From positions 310,001 through 374,000 of the forward strand of contig NW_025954980.1 of NCBI RefSeq assembly GCF_022376445.1: a stretch of DNA of 64,000 bases, in the 5' to 3' direction. The position numbers and the translations under genes were made by a program. Positions 2,780 through 36,077 of this stretch are shown one piece after another. Within the stretch, counting starts at the first letter, position 1, and each line of letters begins with the position of its first letter. Under the pieces are notes generated by a model. The model made no database searches. It was not told the origin of the DNA and saw only the letters and a list, made by a program, of their open reading frames with translations. The stretch comes from Fomitopsis serialis. Lineage: Eukaryota > Basidiomycota > Agaricomycetes > Polyporales > Fomitopsidaceae.

Positions 2780-3330
2780 GTCATTTAAACAGGATTGACT
2801 TTAATTCAATAGTGTATTTTAGTTCACCTTAAGGCAATTCATTATTGAACCCCTATAATCCTATCCAGTACTCATCCTATCCAAAGCAGTAAACAGGCTT
2901 AGCTAAGACTATCCTCAGTATGTTAATGGTTTAGCTTAGACTGTACTAGCCAATCCAATCCTGTTATGAGCTTAGATTAGCCTATATTCACCCAATCCAA
3001 TCCTGTTATGAGCTTACCTAGACTGTACTCATCCAGTCCAATCCCATTATAAGCTGAGTTTAGTCAATCCAATCCTATTGTAAGCTTGTCTTAGTCAATC
3101 CAATCCTGTTATGAGCTGACTTTACTCAATCCAATCCTATTGTAAGCTTGTCTTAGTCAATCCAATCCTGTTATGAGCTGACTTTACTCAATCCAATCCT
3201 ATTGTAAGCTTGTCTTAGTCAATCCAATCCTACTGTAAGCTTGGCTTAGCCAATCCAATCCTGTTATGAGCTTACCTTACACTGTACTCATCCAATCCAA
3301 TCCAGTTATGAGCTTAGTTCAGCCAATCCA
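2780..3330. repeat. Left terminal inverted repeat with 31-bp minisatellite
   Basis: The first ~180 bp are unique and identical to the reverse complement of 23505-23690. They are followed by tandem units of about 31 bp starting CAATCCAATCCT, which alternate between ...GTTATGAGCTGACTTTACT and ...ATTGTAAGCTTGTCTTAGT, giving a 62-bp higher-order period. Matching with the right end can be followed to about 3327. The number of units differs between the two ends. Confidence 0.85.
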
Positions 3331-4141
3331 ATCCACTCATAAGCACAATATCAGCTCAGCTAACACCATAATAATCAGGTACATACAGTCTAATATAAGC
3401 TGTTGGCACTAGGCACTCTTTGAGATAATCCCATATACTACTGAGAAAGTAGCAAAGCAAAGACTGTTCTCATCTAATTCTAATCACCATCTCAGGTAAT
3501 CCACCCTCCTAGCTAAGTCAATCTATCAGCTGAGCACATTATCACATGATCCCGGTCAACGTCGGACTTGTACCAGGCGACCGCACGTCAGGGCGGGCTG
3601 CCAGTAATCGAGCATATGATTGGCGAACAAATGAGTAAGTGAGCGGAGGCGTGGACCATCAACACGCAGATTGAGTAACATCCGCCGGTGGCACCACAAT
3701 ATCGCCCAAGAATTGCGCACGATGTTGCGGGTTTGATAACAGCCGCAGGAACTGCCGTGGTGACGAGCATACAGATGAAGCGGGAGTCGGAAGATGGATG
3801 AAAGGAGGTGGGGTGTGCGAGGCGGTGTTGAGACCTGCTGTAACAGCGAGAGGAGGAGGAGGGGGAGGAGGGGGAGCGAGTCAGTGACCGTGGCCCGCAC
3901 CCTAGCGCACACTTCGTCAGTGCTGGCGTTATCACGATAGCAGCGGGCAGTAATGTGCTCCGATAGTACGCGAATGGACGAAGCGGAAGGCAGAGCGGCT
4001 AAGGAACGAATGTCCACACTCGCCGAATGCAATGCTCACGCCGCTCCAGCGCCACTGCTAGCACCACTCGCCGCAGCGCCCTCCTCGCCTGGTGTATCCT
4101 TAGCCGGACTTGGGGCTTTCGGTGGTATCTGCTAGCTAGGG
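3331..4141. other. Subterminal region of the KDZ element, no clear gene
   Basis: The first ~210 bp are AT-rich subterminal sequence without the minisatellite. The rest has open frames on the minus strand, but these are low-complexity Leu/Ser/Pro runs (3840-3880 is GGA-rich on the plus strand). It is probably the 3' flank of the transposase gene. Confidence 0.5.
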
Positions 4142-7100
4142 TCAGTGAACAACTCGTACTGTTCGGGGGAGATCGCGCACAAAGCTGTAGTCCCACTTCT
4201 CCCCAGGATCTCTCCGAGTCGCAGCGAACGCGGCAGCAGAGTTGGTACTCATCTGCTTGAACATCGCGGTCTTTCGCTTCGCATATGCGCGTGCACCCGG
4301 AGACATCCCGTCTTTGAGAGACACTGCTTCCCACGCCGCTGACATGTTGCGGAATCCGAGAGTCGTCCGCTTGAATTCGGCGTGTAACTTGTTGATCTCC
4401 TCGTTGACTCGAGCTTTTTCTGCCCGGGCGCGGAACCACTGGACACGTTCAACTGGAGATAGTCAGACTCGGAGAACAGGTTAGGCAGCAGTGGCATTGC
4501 CGTACCTTCAAGTTCCCAAGCCTCCGCCTCTGCCTTCGTGGTCCACGGAGGAACCGCAGTCCAAATCCAGGCAGGCTCTTCGTGGCTATCGCCCAGCTGT
4601 CGAGGCTTGCGCCAGTTCTTGCTCTTGAGGTCTTGCTTGAGATCAATGGCTGGTGGGATCTCGGACGCGTCAGGATTGCAGAGGATGAGGAGGCGGTCTC
4701 GGTTGTAGTTGTAAAGTCCCGCAAGCATGCGCGTGCGTGTTGTGGCAGCCGTCACCTTCTTTTGCGAGCGGGTATTGTCCTTCTGACCTCGTGCGTGCTT
4801 GCGCTTATCCTCGAGGAAAGCTCCCTGGTGGTTGATCGACAGCTTGACTGCATCGAGGAGATCGTAGGCATGTCCTGTCCGCACACGACGTTCGAAGACG
4901 GCTAGACCTTCGATGCCCATACTGTCGCGTTCGACTGCTGCGAAGTCAGACGGCAGCGCAAGGGGTTCGTCCTCAGGTGTTCCACCAGAGGTATCGTCGT
5001 CGTCACCGTCGTCGAGTTCCTCGCTGTCAAGGTCGGGGAGGTCCATCTGCGGCATTAGAGACGACTGTAGTTCGCGCCACTTCTCCAGTTCACGACGTAA
5101 CGTGTGGCGTTCACCGTTTAAGGTGGATAGTGCTTCATCCAACCCATCATCGTCGGCGCTTTTCTTGGCCTTGTCTCGCAATTCGTACCTACGCGCAGGA
5201 ATGAGTCCGGGTATCAGGAATCTGAATGCCATCCTTACTGTCGTCGCTCAAGCTCAAGGGCTTTCTTAAAAAAATGAGTCGTGCCCGCGGGAGCTTTCCC
5301 AGCTGCTGCCGTTGTGAATGTTTCTTTGGGGCTGATCTCGAGACTGACGAGGTCCTCGTAGGCTTTCCCAGCACTTGGCACTAGCACACAACGGCGTCAG
5401 CTTCGCCGGCTATTACGACCAGGCTCGCGGCGACACGGAACTCACCTATGCTTTCGTCCAGCATGTATACTCTCTGTAATTGCTCCGCTGCGGAATCTGT
5501 TGCATCTGCCTTGCCTTTCGCCACCTTGCCCTTCGCCACTGCCTTGCCCTTCGCCATCTTGGTCTTCGCTGCCGCCTTTCCCTTCACTGCTCGCTTGCTT
5601 GTCGCTGAACCATCTGCCGCCGCCGCTGCCTGAGGTCGTACGAGTGAACCGCTGAGGTCGGACTCCATCTCTTCCCATTCCTGTACTCTCTCTCCAGCAA
5701 CCTGGCTGAGAGAGTCGAAGAGAGCGACCTTGTGCCGCTGCAGGACAAAGGCCTCCCGGAGCTTGCGTGCGAGGAATAGGGCTGGAGACGTAGATTAAGA
5801 GTTGTCTGCCTGTTGAACACAACATGCTCACCTTGAGTCTCGACTTTACACCAGTTCCAGTGGTTGTGGACGGCGTTAAGTGTATCGTGGCGGTGTCCAA
5901 CACTCATTTCACGCGTGCTTAACCCCACTTGGTTGTGTTCGGCCCATGGATGCTCGACACTCTCACCGTGCGATAGTCCTGCGCCCCAGGAGTAACACAG
6001 AGCGTATACGATTTGGCAGAATTCTTTGTGAGCGAGCATGTGCAGTTTCGGCAAGAGGAGCTGGATCCGGTCAAGTAAGGGGACGAGGTGCGGGAAACGG
6101 TCGCCAAACCGCTTGCGCAGGTTGATCTTGTAGATGCAGGCAACGTCGTAGGTGAATATGAAGTGCGAGAGCTCTTCCAGACCTTCGAGGGCACCCGCTA
6201 GTGCGTAGTCCATGTGGCCATATCTACAGGTGGTCAGTGGGCGGCTGAGACGATATTAGAACGGCCTACCTTTCCCCCTTTTGGAGGTCAACCATCGCCC
6301 TGGGTCTGAAGCAACCGTGTCGAATGCAGATCACAGCGACGACCCCGCTGACCTCCAGGTGGCGGAACTTCCCCGGTCGCTGTGCGCGTCCCACCTTGAA
6401 ACCACTGCATGTTTCGGGCTACGATTCATATGTGTGAGAGAGCAATGATGCGATGTATAACAATAACTTACCACGGGCTCCGCGTCAATGCCTTCTAGGT
6501 ACTCCTTCATAATCGCGTGCTCCACGAAATATCCCCGACCTTCCCACAGACTCCAATCATTCGGGTCGTCGCGCTTCCGCTTCTTCTGCAACCCATGATT
6601 GCCATCGCCGCCTAGCTCGCATGCATGAATGTACCTACACATCCATGCCAATCAGTCATTTCCCACGGTAGGCTTCTATAACGAGTTGCACTTACGTTAG
6701 CTCAGTCGGCGTGTCCTTCCAATTCGGAGGCATGTTGAAACCAGGCCACGGACATGCGAAGCAAGGTACGGTCATCGACGGGGCGCGATTAGGCAGCGTC
6801 AGCCCGTGATGCAGTCCGGAACGCTTCGTAGCGGTAAGGTACTGCCATATTCGACCCGCAACATTGAGCTCTCGATACCTATTCTGGAGGGTGTGTGAGC
6901 AACAATAGTAGCATGCCGATCATGCTATTCGTACCTTGACTTTCTGAGTGCCTGAATTGTCAGTGAGGCGTCGCAAGGCTTGAAAGTAGTCGTATGCGCC
7001 CTTTTTCGACGTAAGGAAGTGAATATCCCACTGGCGAAGGACCTCGAAAGTGAATGCGCTTTCCGGCCGTTCCAGTGTGGCGGGGAACAGCCCGGCACGT

Positions 7101-7918
7101 AGAAGCTGGGAGACGGTGGCGCGATGACCAGGACAGTGACACTCCTGAATGGGTACGCAGTGAACACCGTTGCTGTGGGTGATCGTGTAGGTGATGGGAA
7201 GGAAGGTCGAGCGCAAAGACGGGCACGGATCTCCGTCGTGTCCCAAGTACATTGTCAGGCCGAGAGCCGCGAGGTCGGTCTTCACAAGGAACTCGCCATT
7301 CCACACCTCGGCCCAATGAAAGGGACTATGGCGATGCGAGTGAATGAGGCAACGAGGGCATTGGAGACGACTTTGGAAGCAGTCTCGACAACGCGTGGTT
7401 GCAGCCTGTTTTCCGCAGGTGCAAAGTTCGCCGATCCCTGGCGGTACCTCGGTAGCGAGGATGTCATCGAGAATGTCGGGCAATCGTGGTCTCCAACGCT
7501 CTAAAACCGCTGAGATGCCATTCTGAAAAGAAGTAGATCTCAACATTGTGTCAGAGCCGCAACGTATTGTGCATACCTTCACTGTGCGATCCTTTCCTGA
7601 AGGATCAGGCAGCCCTGACGCGTTCTCAGCAGCACTTGAGGGGAGTTGATCAGGCGCCGACTTGCTTGGCGAAGGGGGCGCGGCTGGGCTTGTAAGTCGA
7701 GGTCGCTTTGGTGGCAGCCGCTCAACACGGTAGACTTCACGCCTCGCAAACTGGACGAAGCCATCGCGCTGGACGCAGGTCGTATCACTGCGGGTCGTGG
7801 CAGCAGGCAAGATGTCTTCCATAACCGCAGCAGGGCGTTTCCGGCGGCGGGAGCTCATGGCTTGGAGGGAATGCGGGCGGCGTTGGCAGGCTTCGTAGGC
7901 GTACAGGAGCTGCGACAA
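4142..7918 (-). CDS. KDZ (Kyakuja-Dileera-Zisupton) transposase with CxC2-like cysteine cluster
   Basis: Multi-exon gene encoding the element's transposase. The first exon is basic (start at 7918, or more likely 7858 with MSSRRRKRP). After an intron near 7525-7578 comes the cysteine cluster (CTCGKQAATTRCRDC, then CPRCLIHSH). Next is the core: GRIWQYLTATKRSG and CFACPWPGFNMPP near 6720-6890, GDGNHGLQKKRKRDDPND near 6540-6610, and the conserved block FRHLEVSGVVAVICIRHG near 6330. The block 5584-6213 has MDYALAGALEGLEEL, YDVACIYKINLRKRF, LPKLHMLAHKEFCQ, GESVEHPWAEHNQ and GHRHDTLNAVHNHWNW, typical of the RNase H-like KDZ catalytic region. The C-terminus (4170-5270) has VQWFRARAEKARV and the family's LHAEFKRTTLGFRNM. 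A Lys/Ala-rich (KGKA) insert lies at about 5500-5600. I saw no frame-breaking stop, so it looks intact. About 1,100 residues. Confidence 0.88.
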
Positions 7919-10238
7919 GTGGTGGAGCAGACTCGCGCAGGTCTCGTCGAGAAGCTTCGGGGAACGGCGGGAACAACGGCGTCAACGGACTACACAGAGC
8001 TGCAGGGGATACGAGAAAAGCCTCGCACAGTGGCGAGGACGCGTCAACGGGCTGCGCAGATGCACACAGACCACGAGACAGGCTTGCAGAGAAGAGAGAG
8101 CGCGCAGGTTTCGAGCGTCCGGAAGAATCAGAGACGCGGATACGCCGCGCATCGAGGCTCGCAGGGGTGCATGAGCTTCGCAGGCGCGGAGACTGCGTGG
8201 AGGGAGGCGTAGGCGGCGTCCGAGCACGGAGAAGGGTGGGTCGCGCCGAGAGGCTTCTCAGAGGTGCGTGGGTCGCGTCACGGTGCGCTTTGCACCACGC
8301 TAGAGCGGCGGGTCGTTCTATTGGATTCACGCGGGGCAAAACAGTAGTACTACTCGATCTGTAACAGTCCGCCCGATCGGTGAGATCCACAATCGTAGGT
8401 ACAATCTGAGAAGACCTCAGCCACTACGGTAGTAAACGGCCCAACTTGAACAAGCCGGCATGAAACACTAGCGGGAGATGGCTACCCTGGCTCTTTTGCC
8501 ACATTCATTGCACCGAGTGACCCGTCACAAAACATGCCAACGCGCCGCGTCGTTCTTCACCACAAGACAACCAAATCTGTACTTGGCAATCGGTCAGCGC
8601 AGTAAGCCGAGACATGGTGATGTACGCGCACCTGTGCTTCCCTGCAGCCGTATATACCGAAAATGTTCCGCGCCAGCGAGACGTTGCATGCCAAGGAGTG
8701 CGTCGTTGAGCGACTGGAAAGAAACACCGATCCTCTGCACACGAGCTCAGTCGGCAGTTTGCTTTCATGTCGCAATTACTTACTTGTCGTCAGTGCAGTC
8801 CATAGATCTCAGTGTACGAGCGGTGGCGGTGGCGGTGGCGAAGTCGACGTTGAACCTGCGATCGCTCGTCTGCGCGAGCACAAGGTGAGCCCGTAGATGT
8901 GCGGCGTTCAGCCACGCCCGTGAAACTGCAGGTTCGCGATGACCATGGAGTTCGAGAGCTATATTGCTGTTTTGGTTGTAAGGACGTGTAGCTAATGGTG
9001 ATCGTTGATGACCGTACCAGCAGTAAGACCGGCCTAGCGATACCGATATGGGTGCTCCTCAGGTCTGTGGATGCGGTCACCCGGGCATAGCCCAAAGCAT
9101 GCACCACTGCAGACCATTCAGAGCAGCATCGGGGTGGGGTAGCGCAACGCTATGGCGATAGCGACACTCAGTGCGAGTCCGAACACGATCGAAGGCCGCA
9201 GGTGCATACCTCGTGAGCTCAATACGCGAACGCGGCCTTCCGGCGACCTGTTCTTGAGCTGTGACGGAGTGCTGGGCCAATCTCGACGAGGGAGGCTGCT
9301 GGTTGATATGCCGAAGCCGCATCTCAACTGTAGGTAACCCTGCAGGAGCGTACGGTATGCCAACGGGTCAAAAAGGCAATATGGCCATTTTTGCTCAACC
9401 GTGACTTGAGACTGATGTTCGTGATGGGCCTAGGCGGAACGCAGGCGAGGAACGGATTCGAGGAACGGATTCGAGGAACGGATACGAGGGGTGAGTATAA
9501 GCTAAGTAACTTAGTAAGTACGTAGAGGATAAGCCGAAGAAGGGCGCTCAGCGACAACGTCTGGTCACGTTGAAGTGCACGAGTCACGCTGCGGTTGAGT
9601 CCGACTCCAGCCACTGAGTCCAGCGGCTAATCTCATGTAATCGCTCATCCGATTCCCAAGCTCATCCTGTCTCTAATCCGCCCCAGTTGTACGCCTCGCC
9701 TCTCGACTTCAAGATCTCTCCGGACGACGGGTAGAGCGGTGCGATCTATAGGTCACAATTCCTAAGACGCCCCTCTTCGACTGCTGTGCGCGAAAAGGAA
9801 GGTTACTTCCTCGACGCCCGGCACATAGGCACTCGAACTAGGTCGTGGTTAGTGAGCTGACCATTCTTCGTTGCATCCCGACGTATTCACTGACACAAGT
9901 TCAGTCGAACTTCGCAATCCTCACCTAATCTCCCACATCTGCGCTAAGTTGAGGCCATGTTGACGTCCGGGTGAGCGTTCTGTCGCATCGCGTGTCGTAG
10001 CTGACTAGGCCGCCTCCAAATAGAGAGCAGTCGCACTGTTTGTCGAAGCGGCGGCGCGACGATACGCATGAAGAAGTCTGGCCGCCGTAAGTCCCAGAAC
10101 TTACGATTAGTCACGCGTCGACTTAATGGTCCCGTCGACAGAGCACATGAAGACCCGTTCACTGGCCACGACATGATCTCTTCCGGCGTAGGAGGGTTGG
10201 GAGTGGTTGGGGGAGAGTATGACGAGGCGGGGCGAATC
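7919..10238. other. Divergent intergenic region between transposase and accessory gene 1
   Basis: No gene is supported. The first ~500 bp are GC-rich and open in several frames, as expected for a promoter/5' region of the transposase. There is a short GGT/GGC run at about 8818-8840 and three copies of a 13-bp unit (GAGGAACGGATTC) at 9447-9485. It probably holds the promoters of both divergent transcription units. Confidence 0.5.
9447..9485. repeat. Three tandem copies of a 13-bp unit
   Basis: GAGGAACGGATTC is repeated three times; the last copy reads GGATAC. The array sits in the divergent promoter region of the KDZ element. Confidence 0.8.
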
Positions 10239-12333
10239 ATGGAGTTGAACCCCACACTTGAGCTATTCCGTGCGTATGAGACCGCTTTCGTTCGCGTGAG
10301 TCCACTGACCTGTTACAGAAGCCAACCCCCGCATCGACTGGTGCGATGGTCGCCTGGCGTCACCATGGAAGATGCGTGAGGACGCAGTCGTCACTACCCC
10401 AAACGCCGCGTGGATGCCCGAATTCCCGGTCGCCGCGCCAGGACTTATTGGCACCCGGGCCGATGGACGATGGGGTCCACAGGAATACTCGATCTGGCCG
10501 CAGCTCTATCACCCCAGAGTCCTTCACCACGCGTGCATTCCAGCCAAAGGCGGCCACGTAGACATACTCCCCATAACGATTGAGTCCCTTTGGGAACCCC
10601 TCTCGAGTGATGACTGGGCTAGCGACGCCGCATGCGGTGTGCCCGATCTAGGCTTCCTCAACGCCTCGAGGCTCCTGTCTCTCAAATATGTTGCGCATGC
10701 GGTCTATGGCCGCTTCGTTAACTCGCGAGCAGATGCGAAGGCCAAGGCATTCGGCCGACATCTTCACATTACGATTGAGCAGGCCCTCGATCGGCTCACC
10801 GTGCTTCCGACATGGCGCGCGCATACCATCGCTGTCGCCGCTCATATCCAACGTCTTTGCCTGGAGCTGTGCGGTCTAGTGCTCCTGTTCGAGATCGTCC
10901 AGCCTCGCATTTCCAATACACATTATATCGCTGCGGCTCCTCTCGCTGTACGTGGCGCGTTCACAAACAATGCTAGTACCGCCCAGGTGCTGTTCCGGTT
11001 GGGAATACCAGTCTGGTACATTCAGCCTCTTACGAAGACTCTACGCATTATTGAGGTCGTCGACGTGCCGACCTCGATCTCCACGGTCTTGAGCCTAGAG
11101 CTCTCACAGCCGCGTCTTCACGGCACCGGCGATCTTGCTGGCATCGTCCAGCATCCCGGTGATTGGCCCTTCGCGATGCAACAAGAAGTCTTGAAGAGCC
11201 TACTTGATGCGCGGTTGCCCCCGCTACCGAAGGACGAATGCCCAGCGCCTGAGGTGCCCCCTGCCAAGAAGGCAAGAGAAGAACCAGATCGAGATGAACC
11301 TCGTGCCAATGCGGCTGGTGGCTCGTCTCGTCGCAAGCCTACGCATCGGGGAAAACGGTCCCAACCGATCGCTCCCGCTCCCGCTCCCCACCCATCTCTC
11401 TATTACCAGCCGCCTACCATAGCCGTCGTGCCGAACGTCTGGGCCGACTGCCTCCGATCTACGCCTACCCTGTCGCCCCCTGCAACACCGTCGACCTATT
11501 ATTGGCCACCTCCCTTCTTGTTTGAAGGGGTGGGTGACAAGACCAAGCGGTATCTACACAACTATATCCGAATACGCGGTTTCTGTCGGCAACGTTTGCT
11601 GGACCCGACAATCGGAGGAGAGCCGCTTCGAATTTCGGAGTGGCGCGATGCGCTCTGGGGGGACTACGCCGTTCGGGGTGACGAAGTGATGCGTCCCGAC
11701 GTTACGAAACGGAGCAAGGAACGTCGTCAGGTGCAGCAGAACATTCGCCGCCTCTTTTCTAAGGCCGCGGGGCTCCCGACATATCACGAGGCTCTGACAG
11801 TGCAGTGGGGGGACACCGTCGCCACCCTTAGTACCCTCGACAACGTTATGCTAAAGCGACGAATCCTGTGGGAGATACATGAGGTGAATTGGCGGTGCGA
11901 GCTCCGTGAGCTGGACGCAGTCTTGACTGACTCGCGTCAATGGGGGACACTGCAGCAGTGGGAGCGTGAAGCACGAGTTTGTCGCGTATGGGGGGCTGAC
12001 AGCTCAGGGCTGCGCGTTGTCCCTCTCTGGGAGGACGGTGTCAAACCGAGGCTGTGTTGGATCGATTCTCCGAACATAGGATGGGAGACTTGTCGTGTCG
12101 CACTCGCCGAGATTGTGGGTGTCATGGCGCGGTGGTCGAAGCTTCCTGAGCTGCTCAAAATCTCGCAGCAGGAGGTGCTCAGTAGTGACGCGGATCGATT
12201 CCTGCACCTCCAGAAGACTGCGATTACGTTTTACATACAATCTTTTCTCGCTGTGTTTCACCGCTTGCCTGTTCCGCCTGCAGTGCTGCCGGAGAATGGC
12301 TTTAGAGATCGATCAGTCGTGTACAATGTATGA
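10239..12333 (+). CDS. KDZ-element accessory protein 1, uncharacterised (~681 aa)
   Basis: Two exons, 10239-10269 and 10319-12333, give 2,046 coding bases in frame. The first exon starts MELNPTLELF. The 49-bp intron runs GTGCGT...TTACAG with a CTGAC-like branch site, and exon 2 opens ANPRIDWCDGRLASPW. Conserved-looking parts are RWGPQEYSIWPQLYHP (residue ~65), GGHVDILPIT (~90), an Ala/Leu-rich helical part, a basic Pro-rich linker (~310-350, KPTHRGKRSQP), then YYWPPPFLFEGVG and a Trp-rich C-terminal part. I cannot assign a known domain, enzyme motif or membrane segment. Its position beside the transposase in the same element suggests a transposon cargo or accessory function, which is inference only. 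Confidence 0.75.
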
Positions 12334-12485
12334 ATGTTGCTTTGGATTTCTGAATGCGATGATTTCACGTCTTCCTCAGGGTTTCGGCGACATTTCAAAC
12401 GCGTGAGCCTTCTCCACAAATTCATACGGAACTAACACTTTTTTTTTTGTTTTGGTGACGAAATATGCAAGTAATCGCTCACCTG

Positions 12486-12494
12486 TATAAAAGG
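12486..12494 (+). promoter_or_regulatory. TATA box upstream of accessory gene 2
   Basis: TATAAAAGG lies 46 bp before the ATG at 12540. It rules out the in-frame ATG at 12465 as the start and makes the one at 12498 too close. Confidence 0.55.
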
Positions 12495-12539
12495 CGCATG
12501 AGAACCTCTGTACGTCGTCCACTTCATTCGACTGCAAAG

Positions 12540-13731: not shown

Positions 13732-15794
13732 TTGCAGAGTAGCCGTGGTTGGATGTCGTCTCGCTGCAGTTCTGATGGTCTCAAAATGAGATCGTGTTTG
13801 ACTGAGATCGTTGTGGTTACAGATTGCGGTGGAGATTCACACCAGCCGAAGGGTTTTCCCGGGCGTAAACAACGACGAACATGCGGAAATATGGTCTTGC
13901 CGCCGATGAATCCGGGTGAGCTCATGGCTCGTACGATCGAAGTTTGCATTGGGGTACTGCCAGCGCGTTAACCGCTGCTAACCGTCACGATTGCAAACGG
14001 TGAGTTTCGCTTGTTACGGATCACGCCGTGGCTCAGTACGTCGACGGCAGGATACGACGACTCTCTCTTCCACCGTCCACTTGCTTCACCTCTCAGTATC
14101 TAGCTATGTCAACCGACGATGAGTCTAGCCTCCAAGACACGCACGAGACGCCCAGCTCCGACGAAGACAGTGACGACAAAGTCGACAGCAACACTGCAGC
14201 GAGCAAGCCGCTCGAGACTGCGAGACAAATGGCTGAAGACAACGAAGAAGAAGAAGATACGAGGGACCGTACAGATTGGAGCAAGGATGGGTTGCAGCCG
14301 TTCATGAGGGGGAAGCTCCAGGCCTGGTTTGAGCTGCCCAGTGGGGCAAGGGCCGCACACAAGCCTTTCGTACAGAGGTTGAGATCGAGTTGTCGCGAAA
14401 CTATCCTTGGAACCAGTCGACCGACATGCAACAAGTGAGTGGGAGGTAACACGAGATATATGTGCTGATAACCTTGTGCAGGCTGTCTACAATTGGTTCA
14501 AGAACAATGGCTCGAACGCGGCACGCGCCGCATGGTTGAAGAACGGTCGTACCGTACTAATAAGCGCACCTACTACGAAGAGTAAGTCTCTGTTCGCCAG
14601 ATCGCGACTGAAGGGACCTTCGGAGTTGTGGGCGGAGGTTCCTGCGAACAAGGCGTTGATTGTAAAGAAGACGGAGAAGGGTGGTTTGGGAGCAGGAGGT
14701 TTTCAAGCCACGACGCGCACGGACCTATTCCAGAAGCTCCCTCTCGACGAGCAGCAAGCATTCAAGACCAAGGCAGAGGAGAAGGCGAAGGCGAAGGCGC
14801 AGCCGTCGCCTGAGCAGCTGGCCGTAGCCATGAAGGAGTACGTTCTCCTATTAGTCACTGCGCGTACGTCAAGTGCTAAAGACAGTGATAGAAACCGTGC
14901 CAATTTCCCAGAACAGATGCAAGAGTATCTGTTAAGCTGCATTGGTACAGGCCTTCACTGCCTCGGCAATGCCGCGTTCTTCATGCGCATCGCGTTCCGT
15001 GATGATGATGGCCCACTCGAACTCAAGCAGTAGGTGCAGCATCTCTGCGTGATTCACCTCCGTTGATACTATGCCTTTACAGGATGTACGTCGGCGACTT
15101 GCTGAATAAGCAAGGATTTGTTAAGTTCGCAGGAGGACTGGTGGAAGAGAGCGCCGAGTGGAGGAGGTTCGCGTCTGCCATACTTCGTAAGTTCGTTGTC
15201 TCAAGCTTGTGTCCCTGTACACTAAGAGCTCGTGCAGCGCAACAGGAAGCTGGACAAGAATATGGCATCAAGTACCATGACGGCTTCCCAGTACTTCCGA
15301 TGGCTCAGAAAGAGTGGAACTGCTTGCAGCTAACGAAGATTCTGGTTATTTTCTTTCGGGCGTGTTGGGGTATAGTCGTCAATGTTTTGTCTCAGATCCC
15401 ACTTACTGATTGCTGTGTTGTAGTCTATGCACACCGAGGGTTTGCCTCTGTCCCTACCATGCCGACTGCGGCGATCTCAGAACGCTTGCGGGAGCTTGAC
15501 TGGGACGATGTGGACTTCTCTGACCAGCCTGGCTATGCAGAGGTTGTGCCGCTTTGGACCAAGATTTGTAAGACTCAAGGGACACCCGAACACTTCACCT
15601 TCAAGAGTGTATCATCCGACGCCGGTGCTACTAGCTCCAGTGTTGCCGTTGCTGGCCCCTCGAGTGATCGTACATCGGACGTTACCGTGAGTGGCCGTGA
15701 ATCGAGAGTCAAAGACAGTGCCGAGGAGGACGTCGGAAAGAGCAACGAGGACAACATCGAGGCTCCGGTTGACGACAACGTCGATGCCAAGGGT

Positions 15795-15960
15795 GAGGAC
15801 GACGTCAGTGCTGAGGTTGGGGCCGCTGTCGAGGCTGAGGTGGAGAACGATGTCGAGGCTCGGGTCGAGGACGACGTCGAGGCTCGGGGCGAGGATGATG
15901 TCGAGGCTCGGGGCGAGGATGATGTCGAGGCTCGGGTCGAGGACGATGCCGAGGCTCGGG
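15795..15960 (+). repeat. Coding tandem repeat of acidic VEAR(G/V)EDD units
   Basis: GTCGAGGCTCGGG(G/T)CGAGGA(C/T)GA-type units of about 24 bp repeat several times, with the last ones nearly identical, so the array expanded recently. The Copia element inserted into the last unit (GGGTC). Confidence 0.8.
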
Positions 15961-15962
15961 TC
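15958..15962. other. Target-site duplication, left copy (GGGTC)
   Basis: GGGTC directly before the 5' LTR equals 22520-22524 directly after the 3' LTR. Removing the element plus one copy rejoins the accessory gene 3 frame (...EAR V|EGGKDTEAENEG). Confidence 0.95.
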
Positions 15963-16527
15963 TGTTGAACTTCGACTATTTTGGGTGTTACACTACGGGA
16001 TAGGACTTATCCTTTACCCGTTATGGACTTATGTTCTTCGTTGCTACATATTACATACATTTCTTACGGACTTGATCCAGACCTGTAGCACATGATCTGT
16101 TCTAGACTTGTACGGAACATTCCACTACCTTCCAGTACTTTCCAGGATGTTCCAGCACGTTCCTTGATGACATCACCATGACATCACTATGATATCATGT
16201 TCTAGGACTGTCCAGATTCCCTTCCGGTCCTGTCCAGTCCTTTCCAGTACGTTCTATCCATGGTGCAATCATCGCATCATTGCTCATTGCACCATTACGA
16301 TGTCATGCTATTACGCTTACTGTACGATCATGTGATGGCTCTCTCATGTGTATATATACTGGGCTGGATGCCCCTGTAATGTAACGATCTCTCCTCTCAT
16401 TCTACGCCTCCTGAGTCTTCCCTCTCAGTAGTCTTGAGATCTGTTGTAAGTCCTCCATTCTAACAGTCCATTGTTTGCTTCTTTGTAGTTTTGCCTTCAG
16501 CTACGCCACATCACTCCTTGTTCAACA
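15963..16527 (+). repeat. 5' LTR of Copia element
   Basis: 565 bp, TG...CA ends extended to an 8-bp inverted terminal motif TGTTGAAC/GTTCAACA. A TATATATA box at 16351-16358 marks the likely U3/R promoter. No difference from 21955-22519 was found on reading. Confidence 0.96.
16351..16358 (+). promoter_or_regulatory. TATA box in the 5' LTR
   Basis: TATATATA follows CTCTCATGTG in the last third of the LTR, at the expected place for the element's transcription start. The same sequence is in the 3' LTR. Confidence 0.6.
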
Positions 16528-16539
16528 GGTTATGAGCCC
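16528..16539 (+). other. Primer binding site for a half-molecule of initiator tRNA-Met
   Basis: GGTTATGAGCCC directly follows the LTR and is complementary to the anticodon stem-loop of initiator tRNA-Met (GGGCUCAUAACC), not to a tRNA 3' end. Priming by an internally cleaved initiator tRNA is known for Drosophila copia and yeast Ty5. Confidence 0.85.
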
Positions 16540-16615
16540 CGGTCACTGACCAGCTCCCTGTTACAGTGCGCACTACTGTTGTTTTAAAGTCCTACTTCTT
16601 CAAGGAGTAAGTTAG

Positions 16616-17259
16616 GCACCGTTTGCTGTCCTTCTGGGACTGAGTTTGGCGTTGCGTGACATAGTGCCCAAGGCCTTGTCCCAGCGTCTTTCCAGGGTTA
16701 CTCGTCAGAGTACTTTACAAGTTTATCCTCCAGCCAAACCTGAGAGAAAGGTTGGTCTGACGCCGACACTACCTACGTTGATCTTTTGATCTTAACGTTT
16801 TCTTGATCCCAGTCTCATCCGCTCCCCTCTCGCCCCGCCGCCGCTCCCACCTCTGAACCCAGACCTCTTGCTGAGCGTCTGTCAGCACCTCGCCCTCTCC
16901 CTGACTTCAAGCGGAAGTCAGACGTCGAAGCTCAAGGCATTCTTGCCAAGAAAGTAGAAGCTACCGCTGATCGTTTCCAAGCGATCTTTGACAAGAAGCA
17001 TCTCTTTGATCGCCTCGACGACGAGTACCAGAAGGCTCTCCATCGCTTCGCTGATCAGCTCAACTGGCTTGATCAGAACATCGACAAGGTTCCTACCTGG
17101 TCGAAGGAGCAGCGTGAGAAGGTTTCTTGGGCGTGCAAGTGCGTTGGGAACGTCGAGTTTTCTACTCCTACAGAGCCACTTGCGCGTAGATATCGCAAGG
17201 TGACTAGGGAGCTTGTGCATATCTCGAACGGCGGATATTTGGACTGGATCGTTTTGTAG
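16616..17259 (+). CDS. Copia leader ORF, uncharacterised
   Basis: A two-exon frame lies between the primer site and gag: open from 16616, intron 16751-16812 (GTTGGT...TTGATCCCAG), exon 16813-17259 ending GGYLDWIVL and TAG. It reads as a plausible protein: a Pro-rich start (PPAKPERK, SEPRPLAERLSAPRPL), then a helical charged region (KKHLFDRLDDEYQKALHRF, LNWLDQNIDKVPTWSKEQR). No in-frame methionine is visible, so the true start must be reached by further splicing, or the ORF is decayed. It may be an accessory or regulatory protein of this Copia lineage. Confidence 0.5.
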
Positions 17260-17764
17260 TATCTTTGGTCGGCATACCAATACGTTTTTTGTATACCTGG
17301 ATTTGTTATAAAAGCATCACACTGTGGCTTCGTCTGAGCATCAATCGGACAACAGCGAATCTAGTGAGGAAATTACTCCTTACGATTGTACCAGTCATCA
17401 GCATCTATTTGATTATCAGGAGGTCTTCGATTATCACTACGAGCCAGAAGCAAATTCTTGGTCGGCTTGTGATCGTCATCTTTGTCCAAATCGTTACGAT
17501 ACTCCTGAACACCCTCTACAAGAAAGTAGTTGGGGTGGCTTACCGGTTGCTTCCTGGCAGGAAGACTTTGTATTCGCTGAATCGTTTTCGGAGGCACCTC
17601 TACCTCCTGGTCCTGAACACGTTGTAAGGCTACCGTCGCCAAGCAACACAGATTATTCTCCTCCTACTCCCCTACCTGAAGTTTCGTCTGAGGATTTCCT
17701 AGATCCTATCGTTTTTGAGTCCGAAGATTTTGATTTCCAAGAGTTTATTCTTTTGACTACCACC

Positions 17765-20700
17765 ATGGGAGACGTCAAGCCTGATGCTATTCCTGTGCTT
17801 GCCCAAGCGTCTCAGTACGCTAATTGGTCGGCTGCCATGCGCGGCTACCTCACGTTTATTGAAGCCTGGCCTGCTATCGCTCCGGGTACCACCACGTCGG
17901 AGGGATACTCCAAAATGAACTCTCGCGCTCAGGGTGTTCTCCTGATGCGCACGGATAGAAATATCCATCATCACCTCCTTGAGGCTGACGGGGAGACCCT
18001 GAAGTCTGCAAAATCTATGTGGGACGCCCTTAAAAAGGCTTTTGGTACTCCGGATGCGGCCTATTCCTGGTCGTTGTTTTGCTCGCTCATCAAGTCGCCT
18101 GAGATGTCTGATTCTAAGCCCCTGCAAGACCAGACGAACAAAATTGTTACTCGTCTGAAGGAAGTCATTGCTGGCGGGATCAAGCTCGACGACTCTACGC
18201 AGGCCCTCATCCTCTTGTCCAAGGTGCCGGAGACGTACCAGACGATGGTCTCAGCTCTTATGGCAACTGTCAAATTGACCGAGTTGAAGGTCGAGACGGT
18301 CGTCAACAAGATCTTGGCTGAGGAGTCGCTTCGTCGCTCCGGTATGGGACAGTCCGCTTCAAAATCTTCGCAGATTAAGCGGAAGTCGACGGGTCCTTGT
18401 GGTCATTGCGGCGGAAAGCACGGCGAGGAGAATTGTTGGACCAAGTACCCTCATCTGCGCCCACAGGCTAAGGGCGGCAAAGGGGGAAAGGCCAAAGGCA
18501 AGGGCAAGGGCAAGGGTAAAGCGGACTCTAACGGACATTCTTCGCATACGGTATCTACGTCAGATGGTGCTGGTAGTTCTGGACAGTCGTCAAATGTTGT
18601 ACAAGTAGATCAGAGCTCTGCTGGCTCCGTTCAATTGACTTCTTCTTTCTATGTTGCGGATCACTCCGCTGAGGATAGAGGAAAGATGACTGACTGGATT
18701 ATGGATTCTGGTGCGTCTATGACAATCACCAATGATTTGTCTGATTTCTGGGACTACCATGAGTATCGTGTCCCTATCGTTTTTAAGACCGCCGGATCAG
18801 CAACCATCAAAGCACTTGGTGAAGGTACCGTTAAGGGAGTTTGTTTAGTCAACGGACGGCGCATTTCTACGACGATCACAAATGTCGCCTATATTCCGTA
18901 TGCATCTGGTCGTTTGTTCTCAACCGGATGTATTGAGAGGACGAACTATTGTTTGATTCAAGGATCAGGACGGATGGTCATTTATGACCGTAAGTTTGAA
19001 CATGGGCAAAAGACACAGAACATTGGCAATGCCATTTTGCAGGCTGACTATTCACCTGTCAATAACTTGTATCTGTTGTATTTGGAGATATTGAGCCGCA
19101 AGTCTGTAAAGACTGTTTCGTCGTCAGATTGGAAACTCTGGCATCGTCGTTTTGGGCATCCTTCTAAGGAAGCTCTTGAGAAACTGCCTAGCCATACCAC
19201 GGGTGTCGATTCTATTGGAGACCCTGAGAAGTCTCCGTGCGAAGGTTGTCAGTGGGGTAAATCTCATCGTGCCCCATTCCCTGCATCGGAAAAGAGAGCC
19301 TCTAGGCCTCTTGAATTAGTTCATACCGATGAAGACGGTCCTATGCGTACGGCCTCTGTGCCAAATGGTTTCAAGTACTTCATAAGTTTCTTGGACGACT
19401 ACTCAAGTCTTGGCCGTGCTTATTACCTGAAGCAGAAGTCTGATTCGCTCCGTGCGTTTGAGGACTTTAAGGCGTGGGCTGAGAATGTCACTAAGCAGAA
19501 GATACAATGTTTACGCTCGGATCGTGGGGGGGAATATACTTCTGACACTTTCACGGCACATCTCAAGTCTTATGGTATTGAACACCAGAAGACGGTCGCT
19601 GGCTCGCCTCAGCAAAATGGCAGAGCTGAACGTTGGAATCGCACTATTGTAGAGAAGGCTATGGCCATGCTACACCAAGCTGGCCTAAGTCATGGTTTTT
19701 GGCAATTGGCAGTTGATACGGCGATTCATATCTACAATCGTCAGCCCATGCGCCGCTTGAAGTGGCAATGCCCCATTACTCTCTGGGACGGCACAATCCC
19801 AGATGTTTCCTATTTTAGAGTTTTTGGGTGCAAGGCGTTTGTGCATGTGCCGAAAGAGCAGAGATCTGGGAAGCTCGACAAGAAGGCAGTCGAGATGATC
19901 TTTGTTGGTTATGAACAGGGTTCAAAGGGCTATCGTTTTTGGAACCCGGCCACTCGAAGTATCGTTGTGTCTCGTGATGTGACCTTCGATGAAGAGATCT
20001 TTCCAGCACGCAAAGATTTAGGCAATGACCCGAAGTCCCTGGGTCCGCCGCAGTTTGACCCTTCGGATCTTGAGGAACCGGAGGATGTAGATGTACCTCT
20101 ACCTGAACCTGTACCCGCAGACGATGATGACGATGAACCTGAAGAGCCAAAAGTCGAACCTGAGCCAGTGGGAGAACATCCGCATGAGCAGCCACATCCT
20201 GAACCTGTTCCACCTCCTCAGCCTCAGTATCAAAGGCCTCGGAGAGATGGCGCTGGGAGAAATCCTGCAAGGAACAGAGACAACATTTATGGAGATGAAC
20301 CTCCAGCTTCTATAGACCGACGCACTGATACTCAAGGGAATCAGCGGCCTGAAGCAGATGTTTTAATGATGGCTCGTGCTGTTGCGGAAGCGAACTATGG
20401 TGTTCCTCAGAGTCATTCTGAAGCCATGCGTTCTCCTGACAAGTCGAAATGGCAAGGTGCAGAGAAGTCTGAGTACGACTCTCTGATTCAGAATAAGACT
20501 TGGATTCTGGTTCCACGGCCTAAGAACAGGAAGGTCGTTAAGAATCGTTGGGTTTATACGATCAAGCATGATGGTCGTTATAAGGCTCGTCTAGTAGCCA
20601 AAGGTTTCACCCAAGTTTGGGGTCAGGATTACCACGAGACCTTCTCCCCGGTTGCGCGTTTTGAATCCGTGCGATACTTGCTTGCACATGCAGCCCTTGA

Positions 20701-21943
20701 GGATTGGGAGATTGAGTCGATGGATGTCAAGACGGCATTCCTGAACGGTGATCTTGAAGAGGAGATCTACATGGAACAACCTGAAGGCTGGGTTGTACCA
20801 GGCAAGGAAGACCACGTTTGTCTTCTTCTGAAGGCTATATATGGACTTAAGCAGGCTTCACGCCAATGGAATGCTAAGATCCATGCGTCTCTCCTAGGGC
20901 TTGGTTTTATGCGCACATATTCGGATGCTGGTGTATACGTTTATACCCGTGAGTCTGGAGATCACACCTGTGTCGTCATTTTATATGTCGACGACTTGTT
21001 GCTCTTGGGTAACTCTAAGCCCTTCATTGATTCGGTCAAAGAGCGCTTGTCAAGTGAATACCAGATGACGGATTTGGGAGAAGTCCAACGTTTCCTAGGT
21101 CTTAGAATACGTCGAGAGCGTTCTACACGCAGGCTCTTTGTTGACCAGGAAGACTATGTTGAGACTGTCCTAGAGCGTTTTGGAATGAGCAACTGCAAAG
21201 TAGCTCGAACACCGTTGCCAGCGGGTGCAAACTTGCTGAGCAGTACTGAGACTGCTACCGAAGAGTTTAGGACGAAGTATCAGAGCATCATTGGCAGTAT
21301 CATGTACGCCATGCTAGGTACTAGGCCTGATATCGCTTTTGCGGTCACGCGATTGGCCAAGTTTTCGTCCAACCCATCTAAAGAGCATATGTGTTTAGCA
21401 TTCTACGTTCTGCGCTACTTGCAAGGAACTAAGAGTTTTGCGCTCTGTTATGATGGCGGCAGTAACTCTGGTCTGATTGCCTACTCAGACTCAGATTGGG
21501 CCGAAGACCGCGATGATAGGCATTCAACAAGCGGTTTCATCTTCATGATGGCCAATTGTGTCATTTCGTGGGCGTCGAGACGTCAGCCGACTGTTTCTCT
21601 GTCTTCAACTGAAGCAGAATACAAGGCCGCCTCAGACACTTGTCGTCAGATGGCTTGGCTTCGTCATTTCGGCGAGGAGCTTGGAGACAACATGTCAAGT
21701 CCTACTCCTCTTTGTTTAGACAACCACGGAAGTATCTTCCTATCAGTGAATCCTGTTGTGGACCGCCGAACCAAGCATATAGAGATCAGGTATCACTATA
21801 TACGCGAGTTCTACGAGCGTGGTGAAACTGAGATCTACTATGTCGCTAGCGAAGACCAGCTTGCTGACTGCTTGACGAAGAATGTTCCTCTCAATGCAAT
21901 TGAGAAGTTCAGGTCGTCTTCTGGCATGCTTGTAGCATCTTGA
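17765..21943 (+). CDS. Copia Gag-Pol polyprotein (1,392 aa from this start)
   Basis: Residues ~1-230 are a UBN2-type Gag (ANWSAAMRGYLTFIEAWPAI, MWDALKKAFGT). A zinc knuckle CGHCGGKHGEENC is at ~211; its spacing CX2CX3HX4C is one shorter than usual. The aspartic protease is DSGA at ~314. The GAG-pre-integrase has HRRFGHPSKEALEKL and CEGCQWGK (HHCC). The integrase core has VHTDEDGP (~519), LRSDRGGEY (~584) and the Glu of QNGRAERW (~620). The reverse transcriptase runs from ~915 (KARLVAKGFTQ, DVKTAFLNGDL) with YVDD at ~1075. RNase H has AYSDSDWA, SLSSTEAEYKA and RTKHIEIRYHYIRE. The same frame is open upstream to about 17309 with protein-like, acidic sequence (PLPPGPEHVVRLPSPS), so translation may begin earlier. 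The first ATG in frame, at MGDVKPDAIPV, was chosen. No stops or frameshifts seen. Confidence 0.93.
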   Translation: MGDVKPDAIPVLAQASQYANWSAAMRGYLTFIEAWPAIAPGTTTSEGYSKMNSRAQGVLLMRTDRNIHHHLLEADGETLKSAKSMWDALKKAFGTPDAAYSWSLFCSLIKSPEMSDSKPLQDQTNKIVTRLKEVIAGGIKLDDSTQALILLSKVPETYQTMVSALMATVKLTELKVETVVNKILAEESLRRSGMGQSASKSSQIKRKSTGPCGHCGGKHGEENCWTKYPHLRPQAKGGKGGKAKGKGKGKGKADSNGHSSHTVSTSDGAGSSGQSSNVVQVDQSSAGSVQLTSSFYVADHSAEDRGKMTDWIMDSGASMTITNDLSDFWDYHEYRVPIVFKTAGSATIKALGEGTVKGVCLVNGRRISTTITNVAYIPYASGRLFSTGCIERTNYCLIQGSGRMVIYDRKFEHGQKTQNIGNAILQADYSPVNNLYLLYLEILSRKSVKTVSSSDWKLWHRRFGHPSKEALEKLPSHTTGVDSIGDPEKSPCEGCQWGKSHRAPFPASEKRASRPLELVHTDEDGPMRTASVPNGFKYFISFLDDYSSLGRAYYLKQKSDSLRAFEDFKAWAENVTKQKIQCLRSDRGGEYTSDTFTAHLKSYGIEHQKTVAGSPQQNGRAERWNRTIVEKAMAMLHQAGLSHGFWQLAVDTAIHIYNRQPMRRLKWQCPITLWDGTIPDVSYFRVFGCKAFVHVPKEQRSGKLDKKAVEMIFVGYEQGSKGYRFWNPATRSIVVSRDVTFDEEIFPARKDLGNDPKSLGPPQFDPSDLEEPEDVDVPLPEPVPADDDDDEPEEPKVEPEPVGEHPHEQPHPEPVPPPQPQYQRPRRDGAGRNPARNRDNIYGDEPPASIDRRTDTQGNQRPEADVLMMARAVAEANYGVPQSHSEAMRSPDKSKWQGAEKSEYDSLIQNKTWILVPRPKNRKVVKNRWVYTIKHDGRYKARLVAKGFTQVWGQDYHETFSPVARFESVRYLLAHAALEDWEIESMDVKTAFLNGDLEEEIYMEQPEGWVVPGKEDHVCLLLKAIYGLKQASRQWNAKIHASLLGLGFMRTYSDAGVYVYTRESGDHTCVVILYVDDLLLLGNSKPFIDSVKERLSSEYQMTDLGEVQRFLGLRIRRERSTRRLFVDQEDYVETVLERFGMSNCKVARTPLPAGANLLSSTETATEEFRTKYQSIIGSIMYAMLGTRPDIAFAVTRLAKFSSNPSKEHMCLAFYVLRYLQGTKSFALCYDGGSNSGLIAYSDSDWAEDRDDRHSTSGFIFMMANCVISWASRRQPTVSLSSTEAEYKAASDTCRQMAWLRHFGEELGDNMSSPTPLCLDNHGSIFLSVNPVVDRRTKHIEIRYHYIREFYERGETEIYYVASEDQLADCLTKNVPLNAIEKFRSSSGMLVAS

Positions 21944-21945
21944 AC

Positions 21946-21954
21946 AAGTGGGAG
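21946..21954 (+). other. Polypurine tract
   Basis: AAGTGGGAG lies directly before the 3' LTR, two bases after the gag-pol stop codon, where plus-strand synthesis would be primed. Confidence 0.8.
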
Positions 21955-22519
21955 TGTTGAACTTCGACTATTTTGGGTGTTACACTACGGGATAGGACTT
22001 ATCCTTTACCCGTTATGGACTTATGTTCTTCGTTGCTACATATTACATACATTTCTTACGGACTTGATCCAGACCTGTAGCACATGATCTGTTCTAGACT
22101 TGTACGGAACATTCCACTACCTTCCAGTACTTTCCAGGATGTTCCAGCACGTTCCTTGATGACATCACCATGACATCACTATGATATCATGTTCTAGGAC
22201 TGTCCAGATTCCCTTCCGGTCCTGTCCAGTCCTTTCCAGTACGTTCTATCCATGGTGCAATCATCGCATCATTGCTCATTGCACCATTACGATGTCATGC
22301 TATTACGCTTACTGTACGATCATGTGATGGCTCTCTCATGTGTATATATACTGGGCTGGATGCCCCTGTAATGTAACGATCTCTCCTCTCATTCTACGCC
22401 TCCTGAGTCTTCCCTCTCAGTAGTCTTGAGATCTGTTGTAAGTCCTCCATTCTAACAGTCCATTGTTTGCTTCTTTGTAGTTTTGCCTTCAGCTACGCCA
22501 CATCACTCCTTGTTCAACA
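21955..22519 (+). repeat. 3' LTR of Copia element
   Basis: 565 bp, reads the same as the 5' LTR throughout. Confidence 0.96.
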
Positions 22520-23037
22520 GGGTCGAGGGAGGCAAGGATACTGAGGCCGAGAATGAGGGTATGCCTGGCCATACGAGTGACAGGGATGTGGCTGACTGAA
22601 CAGTTACAGGTGATGGTGCCGAGGGACTGCAAAGCCGCCGTAGGGGCCATGAAGAAAATGATGAGACTCAGGGAACAACTGGTGAGTTCTGCTCGGCTCA
22701 TTATCAAATCTGTTGACTGAATAAGTTGATGGCGTAGACAAGTTGCCAGCGAAGAAGCGCAAAACCAACAACGGCAGCGCAAGGTATGTTCTGTGGTTGA
22801 TATTTGTGAGATCAATATGATTGATTTGCTTGTCATGTAGCACTGCGCCATCGAAGAAGAAAACACGTGAGAAATCCTCATTGAAGGGAGTTGCGACTTC
22901 GTCCAATGAACCTCGTGTCACTCGCGCTAGGGCTTCGGCCGTCAAGTAAGTCATTGACTGTTCAAGTATCACTCTATACTGACATGCCTCATGAACTGTG
23001 TAGGCCGCAGACTCGCTCAGCTGGCCGGGCTAAATAG
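22520..23037 (+). pseudogene. KDZ-element accessory gene 3, 3' part after the Copia insertion
   Basis: Continues the acidic frame broken at 15962 (EGGKDTEAENEGMPG). Introns are likely near 22560-22610, at 22783-22839 (GTATGT...CATGTAG) and 22946-23003 (GTAAGT...GTGTAG). Exons carry basic segments (PAKKRKTNNGSA, PSKKKTREKSSLKG, EPRVTRARASAVK) and the last reads PQTRSAGRAK then a stop at 23035-23037. The basic tail resembles a nuclear localisation or DNA-binding tail. It would form one gene with 14106-15962 without the retrotransposon. Confidence 0.65.
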
Positions 23038-23239
23038 GCTGTCTTGTGTTTCGGTGGACCATGTTTCCTTTTTTGGTAATTGTCATTTGTGGATGAGATC
23101 AGAGATGGAAGTGGATTAGCTGAGCTGAGATGGACAGTTTTGGCTAAGGTTATACATGCCTGATTGAGTTGATTAGATTAGATTAGTGACTAAGCTCATG
23201 AGAGTATGGATTGGCTCAGATATAACCAGGCTCACAATA

Positions 23240-23690
23240 GGATTGGATTGGCTGAACTAAGCTCATAACTGGATTGGATTGGATGAGTACAGTGTAAGGT
23301 AAGCTCATAACAGGATTGGATTGACTAAGACAAGCTTACAATAGGATTGGATTGAGTAAAGTCAGCTCATAACAGGATTGGATTGACTAAGACAAGCTTA
23401 CAATAGGATTGGATTGAGTAAAGTCAGCTCATAACAGGATTGGATTGACTAAGACAAGCTTACAATAGGATTGGATTGGGTGAATATAGGCTAATCTAAG
23501 CTCATAACAGGATTGGATTGGCTAGTACAGTCTAAGCTAAACCATTAACATACTGAGGATAGTCTTAGCTAAGCCTGTTTACTGCTTTGGATAGGATGAG
23601 TACTGGATAGGATTATAGGGGTTCAATAATGAATTGCCTTAAGGTGAACTAAAATACACTATTGAATTAAAGTCAATCCTGTTTAAATGA
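23240..23690. repeat. Right terminal inverted repeat with 31-bp minisatellite
   Basis: Reverse complement of the left terminus: the outer ~180 bp appear identical, followed inwards by the same GGATTGGATTG-containing 31-bp units but fewer of them. Between 23038 and 23240 is unique subterminal sequence unlike the left side. Confidence 0.85.
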
Positions 23691-35936: not shown

Positions 35937-36077
35937 GTGCATTTTGACGGTCCTTTCTGTTACCCACTTCATATCGCATCTTACCTGCAATGATCCTTAT
36001 TGACCCGCATGACACTGACAACAATATAAATGCATTAAAGATCGTATCTCCGCGTAATTCCATAAGCAAGGCATAAA

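Follow-up and report, generated by a model that had tools for sequence, protein, structure and literature searches.

The window, a 64,000-nucleotide stretch of the genome of the wood-rotting mushroom Fomitopsis serialis, contains a KDZ element spanning positions 2773-23698 (20,926 bp). Three co-oriented plus-strand genes lie divergent from the KDZ transposase gene between long inverted ends, and a Copia retrotransposon is nested within the unit. The features are arranged as follows.

2766..2772, unstranded: target site duplication, left copy (GAGGACC)
2773..3344, plus strand: left terminal/subterminal inverted region, with the terminus CAGTGATGTCATTTAAA followed by a 31/62-bp tandem array
4249..8423, minus strand: KDZ transposase gene in exon pieces, with the KDZ domain at 5854-6225, a weak piece of it in 6331-6651, and CxC2 at 6950-7273; exon ends approximate
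10068..12333, plus strand: gene 1, in two exons (10068-10269; 10319-12333), with the splice placed by eye
12540..13731, plus strand: gene 2, exons 12540-12710, 12768-13007 and 13057-13731 (P0033, 361 aa, B0H18DRAFT_1117462)
14106..15962, plus strand: gene 3, multi-exon, with a C-terminal tail of acidic repeats, split by the Copia insertion
15958..22524, plus strand: Copia retrotransposon including its 5-bp duplication GGGTC; element proper 15963-22519
23227..23698, minus strand: right terminal/subterminal inverted region, with the mirrored array and the terminus ...TGACAAAGACG
23699..23705, unstranded: target site duplication, right copy (GAGGACC)

Profile searches on the minus strand matched the KDZ domain PF18758 (7e-30, 104.8 bits against a cut-off of 26.6) and the zinc cluster CxC2 PF18803 (8e-31, 106.8 bits against 27). 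Both scores lie far over the cut-offs and bear out the KDZ-type transposase recognised in an earlier note made from the DNA letters. The Copia element, whose LTRs (15963-16527 and 21955-22519) are identical over 565 bp, is a later insertion outside the accessory cassette. Its subtraction leaves 14,364 bp (20,926 - 6,562), so that the size of about 14.4 kb given earlier is right for the element without it.

The earlier note could assign the three co-oriented genes to no nameable family, and the searches agree: genes 1-3 gave no Pfam match over the cut-off, and no DNA-binding family was recognised in them. The product of gene 1 has a conserved 653-aa core (P0001) with a mostly helical predicted structure, for which relatives were sought in Pfam and PDB and none were found. 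Genes 2 and 3 encode basic stretches near their C-termini that look nuclear by eye, and for these two genes a very divergent (PE-type) TET identity is conceivable. The coding tail of gene 3 appears to resume beyond the Copia element, after 22524. Compared with the copy at locus C257, the reading frame of gene 3 seems to shift near 14375, so the window copy may be broken; the shift may also be a missed small intron.

The inverted arms (2779-3015 and 23456-23692) are 237 nt long and 99% complementary, and they continue into 31/62-bp minisatellites, as the earlier description of near-identical, minisatellite-filled ends had it. The true termini, at 2773 and 23698, lie a few bases outside the arms and were set by the break in homology with other copies together with the perfect 7-bp duplication GAGGACC (2766-2772 and 23699-23705). 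Perfect 7-bp duplications border three of the four elements read at both ends, namely the window element, C179 (CAGAAAC) and C92 (TCCAATG), each of which carries KDZ and genes 1, 2 and 3 in a single order; the fourth, C257, has no target duplication. The eighth base mismatches in C179 and C92, while the window element alone is compatible with 8 bp too. The terminal bases are CA..TG in C92 and CA..CG in the window element and C179. The proposal of one unit comprising transposase, ends and three genes thus holds: the window element is a bounded mobile unit, whose transposase and three genes moved together.

Recurrence of the three proteins was analysed within the window's own genome. Gene 2 was identified at 10 loci and gene 3 at the same 10, with gene 1 at most 0.9 kb from gene 2 at each, so the trio occurs in the same order at nine loci besides the window. 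A divergent KDZ match accompanies seven of these ten loci and a divergent CxC2 match another (C93); at the remaining two, C307 and C308, contig ends cut off the KDZ side. Additionally, 9 of the 15 matches to the element ends belong to trio elements and one to a truncated copy (C568), while five have no gene 1 match nearby. For the trio subfamily, therefore, homologues are not found mainly outside KDZ elements, nor ends mostly alone, the two outcomes that the earlier note had named as counting against its idea. The recurrence of the trio beside KDZ transposases, which that note had asked about, is borne out for this subfamily. Across 33 gene 1 loci, 16 are divergent from a KDZ match at a spacing of 3.1-6.3 kb (14 of them at 3.1-4.1 kb); for comparison, regions up to 10 kb from KDZ clusters make up no more than about 2.3% of the genome. 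Twelve of the 33 have no KDZ or CxC2 match nearby; all are distant-group or weaker matches, and three of them (C77, C76 and C623) are intact and constrained. In the distant group, gene 1 is followed by a second gene at 12 of the 14 loci, and gene 1 is present in every cassette variant. Since further copies of the element carry this cassette as well, the three accessory proteins are probably partners of the KDZ transposase.

Gene 1 is under purifying selection among related copies. In 21 of the 33 listed pairs dN/dS was 0.10-0.21; ten pairs were saturated and two near-identical pairs gave 0.43 and 0.69, and the constraint spans copies with dS of 0.16-3.1. The nearest relative of the window gene 1 in its own genome shares about 58% (one fragment, 61%), and selection was therefore measured on its paralogues.

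Both ends of the element consist of strand-polarised arrays of the hexamer YAATCC, a feature described here for the first time. The first 800 bp of the left end contain 26 overlapping copies, and the last 800 bp of the right end, read from the end, contain 21, with one on the other strand in each case. Across the window element, C257, C92 and C568, each end (0.8-1 kb) holds 16-26 forward copies versus 1-3 reverse, and shuffled end sequences hold a mean of about 1. In contrast, AATCC occurs 6-7 times per strand in the element bodies of about 13 kb. Elsewhere in the window (800-bp windows, step 50, starts outside 1900-3700 and 22000-24000), the maximum was 2 non-overlapping YAATCC per strand, versus 15 at the left end. 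The comparison covers the ends of gene 1-type elements. The hexamer and its polarity are retained among relatives with unlike repeat units (31 bp, 22 bp or irregular), and C46, of the distant gene 1 group, has a different 21-bp array with the motif GGCCGAAGC. As counterpoints to a reading by the cassette, such arrays could grow by slippage without function, and their binding partner could be the transposase, through its CxC2 zinc cluster.

KDZ matches are abundant in the F. serialis genome, forming 75 clusters (fragments included), of which 29 have neither gene 1 nor TET. A search with PF12851 (TET/JBP) returned 71 matches, none on the window's contig, and no TET match was found within 10 kb of any of the 16 divergent KDZ-gene 1 loci. 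In this genome TET adjoins a different KDZ clade. In a KDZ tree built solely from rows of this genome, the gene 1-type rows group apart from the TET-type rows. This split tracks the KDZ tree and may therefore reflect one event each, which does not imply functional replacement.

In the most likely reading, to which we give about even odds, this KDZ-superfamily transposon has its own accessory cassette, one or more of whose proteins act at the YAATCC end arrays. The cassette, which is divergent from the transposase gene, would belong to the element. One or more accessory proteins, foremost gene 1, which is the first candidate because it occurs in every cassette variant, would act on the arrays at both ends and make these competent, joining them for the transposase and/or keeping them unsilenced. 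The cassette would thus serve as a transposition cofactor or anti-silencer after the manner of plant TNPA or VANC, and an unsilencing role would match the one proposed for TET/JBP genes in the other KDZ clade of this genome.

Other explanations share parts of this evidence. The transposase might bind the arrays alone through CxC2, leaving the three proteins to nuclear import, transposase regulation or donor-site repair. CxC2 accompanies KDZ in gene 1-type and TET-type elements alike, CxC2 precedes every intact KDZ transposon described in Pleurotus (PMC7641404), and the lack of a recognised DNA-binding family in genes 1-3 points the same way. However, on its own this account leaves unexplained the change of array motif along with the cassette, from YAATCC in the trio elements to GGCCGAAGC in C46, although the transposases differ too; we regard it as rather unlikely. 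A soluble suppressor of silencing (RNAi or heterochromatin) acting in trans, with the arrays as neutral minisatellites, appears improbable. Minisatellites are common at transposon ends, and in place of the cassette the TET-type KDZ elements of this genome have a candidate anti-methylation enzyme, but slippage alone is not expected to keep a polarised hexamer in unlike repeats. Passenger cargo, in the form of three captured host genes without a role for the element, is very unlikely: large fungal elements can carry cargo and the three genes have no known function, yet their order and spacing are constant at ten loci, distant homologues adjoin KDZ as well, gene 1 is constrained across that whole range of dS, and a single predicted Rhodofomes roseus protein (P0009), the sole context datum from outside F. 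serialis, spans gene 1 and gene 2 consecutively.

An extension of the array-acting cassette is more tentative. The cassette may counter silencing or recognise the ends in a sequence-specific way that does not depend on TET. In that case KDZ clades of this polypore would have solved silencing differently, one with a TET/JBP enzyme and the other with a new family (gene 1 and partners) reading YAATCC arrays at the element's ends, which would parallel VANC in a fungus by means of unrelated proteins. The available excerpts of the KDZ literature name TET/JBP genes and cysteine clusters as transposase partners, and no others were found there. A conserved partner family and a candidate cis motif make KDZ end-finding and silencing escape directly testable, and a single genome offers a natural comparison of TET-carrying and cassette-carrying elements.

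Among known systems, as far as the accessible parts of the cited papers describe them, Kyakuja (KDZ superfamily, Agaricomycetes; Kojima 2025, PMC12730594) shares the KDZ transposase, the 7-bp duplications and, in C92 only, the CA..TG ends. The Laccaria Kyakuja families lack terminal inverted repeats and carry TET, whereas the elements described here have long inverted ends, CA..CG termini in two of three, no TET match and a three-gene cassette on the transposase's other side. The window element is not filed as Kyakuja proper because of its 237-nt, 99% inverted arms. Zisupton of the same superfamily likewise has terminal inverted repeats, but its duplications are 8 bp versus 7 bp in C179 and C92 (PMC12730594). 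Cryptococcus KDZ1-3 (PMC12810828) are similar in their KDZ transposase, TIRs of 139-241 bp and length of about 9-11 kb; they differ in having CxC1 rather than CxC2 and 4-8 bp duplications, and an accessory cassette was not found described in the part of that source available. Outside the superfamily, VANDAL/VANC (PMC5735166) involves other proteins, and binding and methylation loss are demonstrated for VANC whereas the present likeness is one of sequence analogy; the two share a short motif clustered in non-coding tandem repeats, whose make-up varies from one related element to another, and an extra element-coded protein. En/Spm-CACTA (PMC2613891) also belongs to another superfamily, in which DNA binding is demonstrated, and it resembles the present element in its subterminal motif arrays and in having, next to the transposase, a second element protein (TNPA) of comparable size at 67 kDa.

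The KDZ element of the window lies on contig C113 (485,092 bp) of the 66.2-Mb genome (G000) of Fomitopsis serialis, a brown-rot polypore; other contigs are likewise given as C numbers. Its boundaries were fixed at 2773 and 23698 because homology to C612 and C257 starts at the former and homology to C568 and C257 ends at the latter.

Features of the element and its surroundings (window coordinates)
2766-2772: GAGGACC, left copy of the target duplication, just outside the left end
2773: left boundary, terminus CAGTGATGTCATTT
2779-3015 and 23456-23692: 237-nt inverted arms, 99% complementary, with 31/62-bp tandem arrays inward of both
Minus strand: transposase gene with KDZ and CxC2 domains
Plus strand: genes 1, 2 and 3 (the cassette)
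15963-16527 and 21955-22519: identical 565-bp LTRs of a nested Copia
23698: right boundary, terminus ...AAGACG
23699-23705: GAGGACC, right copy of the target duplication, just outside the right end
23909-23997: 12-bp minisatellite (TGTCAAACCACT), directly outside the right end
32001-36000: strong swing in base composition (GC 0.67, AT skew up to 0.49), purine-rich short repeats, long open frames overlapping on both strands

The element is mobile as a unit. Perfect 7-bp duplications flank three of the four elements read at both ends, namely the window copy, that of C179 (7,097-35,656, 28.6 kb, CAGAAAC) and that of C92 (15,517-37,630, 22.1 kb, TCCAATG). Both ends of the fourth, on C257 (about 301.33-316.64 kb), were read and showed no target duplication; here the two terminus types are exchanged relative to the genes, as if by recombination. 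C223 displays this swap at its single located end, while its other end was not found in the 4.5 kb searched. The nested Copia, with a single long Copia reading frame and a 5-bp duplication (GGGTC), interrupts the acidic tail of gene 3. Once the Copia and one copy of its duplication are subtracted, the element measures 14,364 bp, in agreement with the approximately 14.4 kb proposed in the earlier note. The element belongs to the KDZ superfamily; it was not filed as Kyakuja proper because its inverted ends depart from a stated Kyakuja feature, nor as a Zisupton because its duplication is 7 bp. Ends belonging to this family but lacking a nearby gene 1 match were observed at C612:159952, C17:79777, C70:7864, C371:1134 and C335:64965, those on C371 and C70 close to contig starts, and are read as truncated, non-autonomous or contig-edge copies.

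For the conserved core of gene 1 (653 aa), 7,996 database candidates were scored and 32 proved to be relatives; those with species names belong to Fomitopsis, Rhodofomes, Trametes, Earliella, Ganoderma and Sparassis, which are all Polyporales. None of the 32 carries a precomputed Pfam domain, and a domain scan of 30 of them gave one weak match, DUF6130 (0.025). The gene 2 product (361 aa, B0H18DRAFT_1117462 of F. serialis) was the only protein found in a full-length search of 7,150 candidates. A predicted protein of Rhodofomes roseus, P0009, consists of gene 1 followed by gene 2, the latter part 41% identical. Gene 3 has two relatives among 7,995 candidates, P0034 (the C257 copy) and P0035 (R. 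roseus); compared with the C257 copy, the reading frame of the window gene seems to shift near 14375, for which a missed small intron is a possible alternative reading.

The cassette recurs within the genome in a fixed layout. Gene 1 gave 57 matches in 37 clusters, or 33 loci after pieces of broken copies (C2, C179, C307, C556) were joined by eye. Gene 2 gave 10 matches and gene 3 gave 11 at 10 loci; the two share ten loci (C113, C157, C93, C223, C2, C92, C257, C307, C308, C179), at all of which the order and strand of the three genes are identical. C179, C307 and C308 appear to derive from a single duplicated stretch, which brings the independent loci below ten. In C179:13060-26274 and C307:23059-36231, gene 1 is split by a stretch of about 13 kb, equal in size in both, and C308 holds a third such copy, cut by the contig end.

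KDZ searches gave 108 matches, 106 of them over the cut-off and grouped into 75 clusters; the zones reaching 10 kb from these clusters cover no more than 2.3% of the genome. A binomial estimate based on this share assumes independent loci, an assumption that near-copies violate. A divergent KDZ match was present within 10 kb at 16 of the 33 gene 1 loci (17 rows, C556 being counted twice). At C93 and C444 the divergent match beside gene 1 is to CxC2, and in C307, C308 and C741 the contig end cuts off the transposase side. At the remaining 12 loci (C163, C50, C54, C623 twice, C643, C721, C76 twice, C762, C77, C81), no KDZ match within 10 kb and no nearby CxC2 match was found. The C163 gene is 99% identical to that of C102, which has KDZ. 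Copies on C77, C623 and C76 (stretches L017, L019 and L020) resemble one another at 92-94%, have open frames of 692 aa and dN/dS of about 0.15-0.17, and show no KDZ, CxC2 or downstream-partner match nearby; they may have been domesticated or may travel in another element. In C77:22501-25000 (L083), the position expected for the transposase is occupied by a single long open frame made of degenerate repeats.

Gene 2 is confined to the ten cassette loci in the own-genome search. In the distant gene 1 group, a second gene begins about 300 bp past gene 1 on C46, and its two overlapping exon frames, used as queries, gave 13 and 14 matches. It lies downstream of gene 1 on the same strand at 12 of 14 loci, within 0.5 kb at 11 and 3.7 kb away on C444; gene 1 matches are absent at the other two, C110 and C113:8 kb. 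The wider module is therefore gene 1 plus a downstream partner.

Another KDZ clade adjoins a Tet_JBP gene (TET), for which all 71 matches were used, 36 being over the cut-off. Within 10 kb, the 75 KDZ clusters comprised 18 with gene 1 only, 26 with TET only, 29 with neither and 2 with both. Sixteen of the 18 are divergent, and none of these 16 pairs has a TET match within 10 kb. The non-divergent cases (C179:4041 and C93:19936 with gene 1 only, C307 and C308 with both) look like neighbouring elements or fragments. TET is oriented convergently with KDZ in 28 of the 31 pairs and gene 1 divergently, so the two kinds of element are assembled on opposite flanks of the transposase. A KDZ tree was built from 32 rows (30 loci, the window and C257) out of the 75 clusters; its deeper joins are unsure because of the program's long-branch warning. 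In this tree gene 1-type rows form two starred clades, which an unstarred branch (93/89) unites with C103, where the contig ends on the upstream side. Two changes are required for the gene 1 label, with a single group in 18% of bootstrap trees. TET rows form a separate group (92/93), which includes C179a, labelled as having neither gene and a near-copy of the TET-type C307. The exclusion of gene 1 and TET is a property of clades and does not count as several independent events.

Gene 1 is under constraint. Among 33 listed pairs from 19 copies (60-99.5% identity; the window copy was left out, being too distant from every other), dN/dS was 0.10-0.21 in 21, 10 were saturated, and two near-identical pairs gave 0.43 and 0.69. 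For one exon of gene 2 in six copies, close pairs gave 0.21 and 0.27 and distant pairs 0.26-0.52, with two undefined.

The end arrays are polarised. Overlapping YAATCC counts, read inward from the terminus, reached 26 (window left), 21 (window right), 20 (C568) and 17 (C92) in 800 bp each, and 18 and 16 in 1000 bp at the two C257 ends. The reverse strand of these ends held 1 to 3, and 1000 first-order (dinucleotide) chain shuffles gave means of 0.5 to 1.2 and maxima of 4 to 7; across about 13 kb of element body, each strand has 6 or 7 AATCC. These ends amount to three independent arrays, since C568 belongs to the window's family as one of its copies. Hexamer and direction are unchanged although the repeat unit varies, being 31/62 bp in the window, 22/44 bp in C92 and of irregular length in C257. 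The C46 element instead carries a 21-bp array around GGCCGAAGC, with a mirrored counterpart further along; in L082 (C46) 2380-4180, the two arrays, with their flanks, face one another at about 3.3 kb and may represent two element ends head to head.

A cassette protein would read these arrays. We give a probability of about 0.5 to the cassette encoding end-acting accessory proteins, as cofactor or anti-silencer; its bolder form, a TET-independent, sequence-specific anti-silencing or end-recognition system, is doubtful. Variable subterminal motifs are described for CACTA elements (PMC2613891). For VANC targets (PMC5735166), a motif is reported to be concentrated in tandem repeats that differ among related elements, as in the YAATCC arrays.
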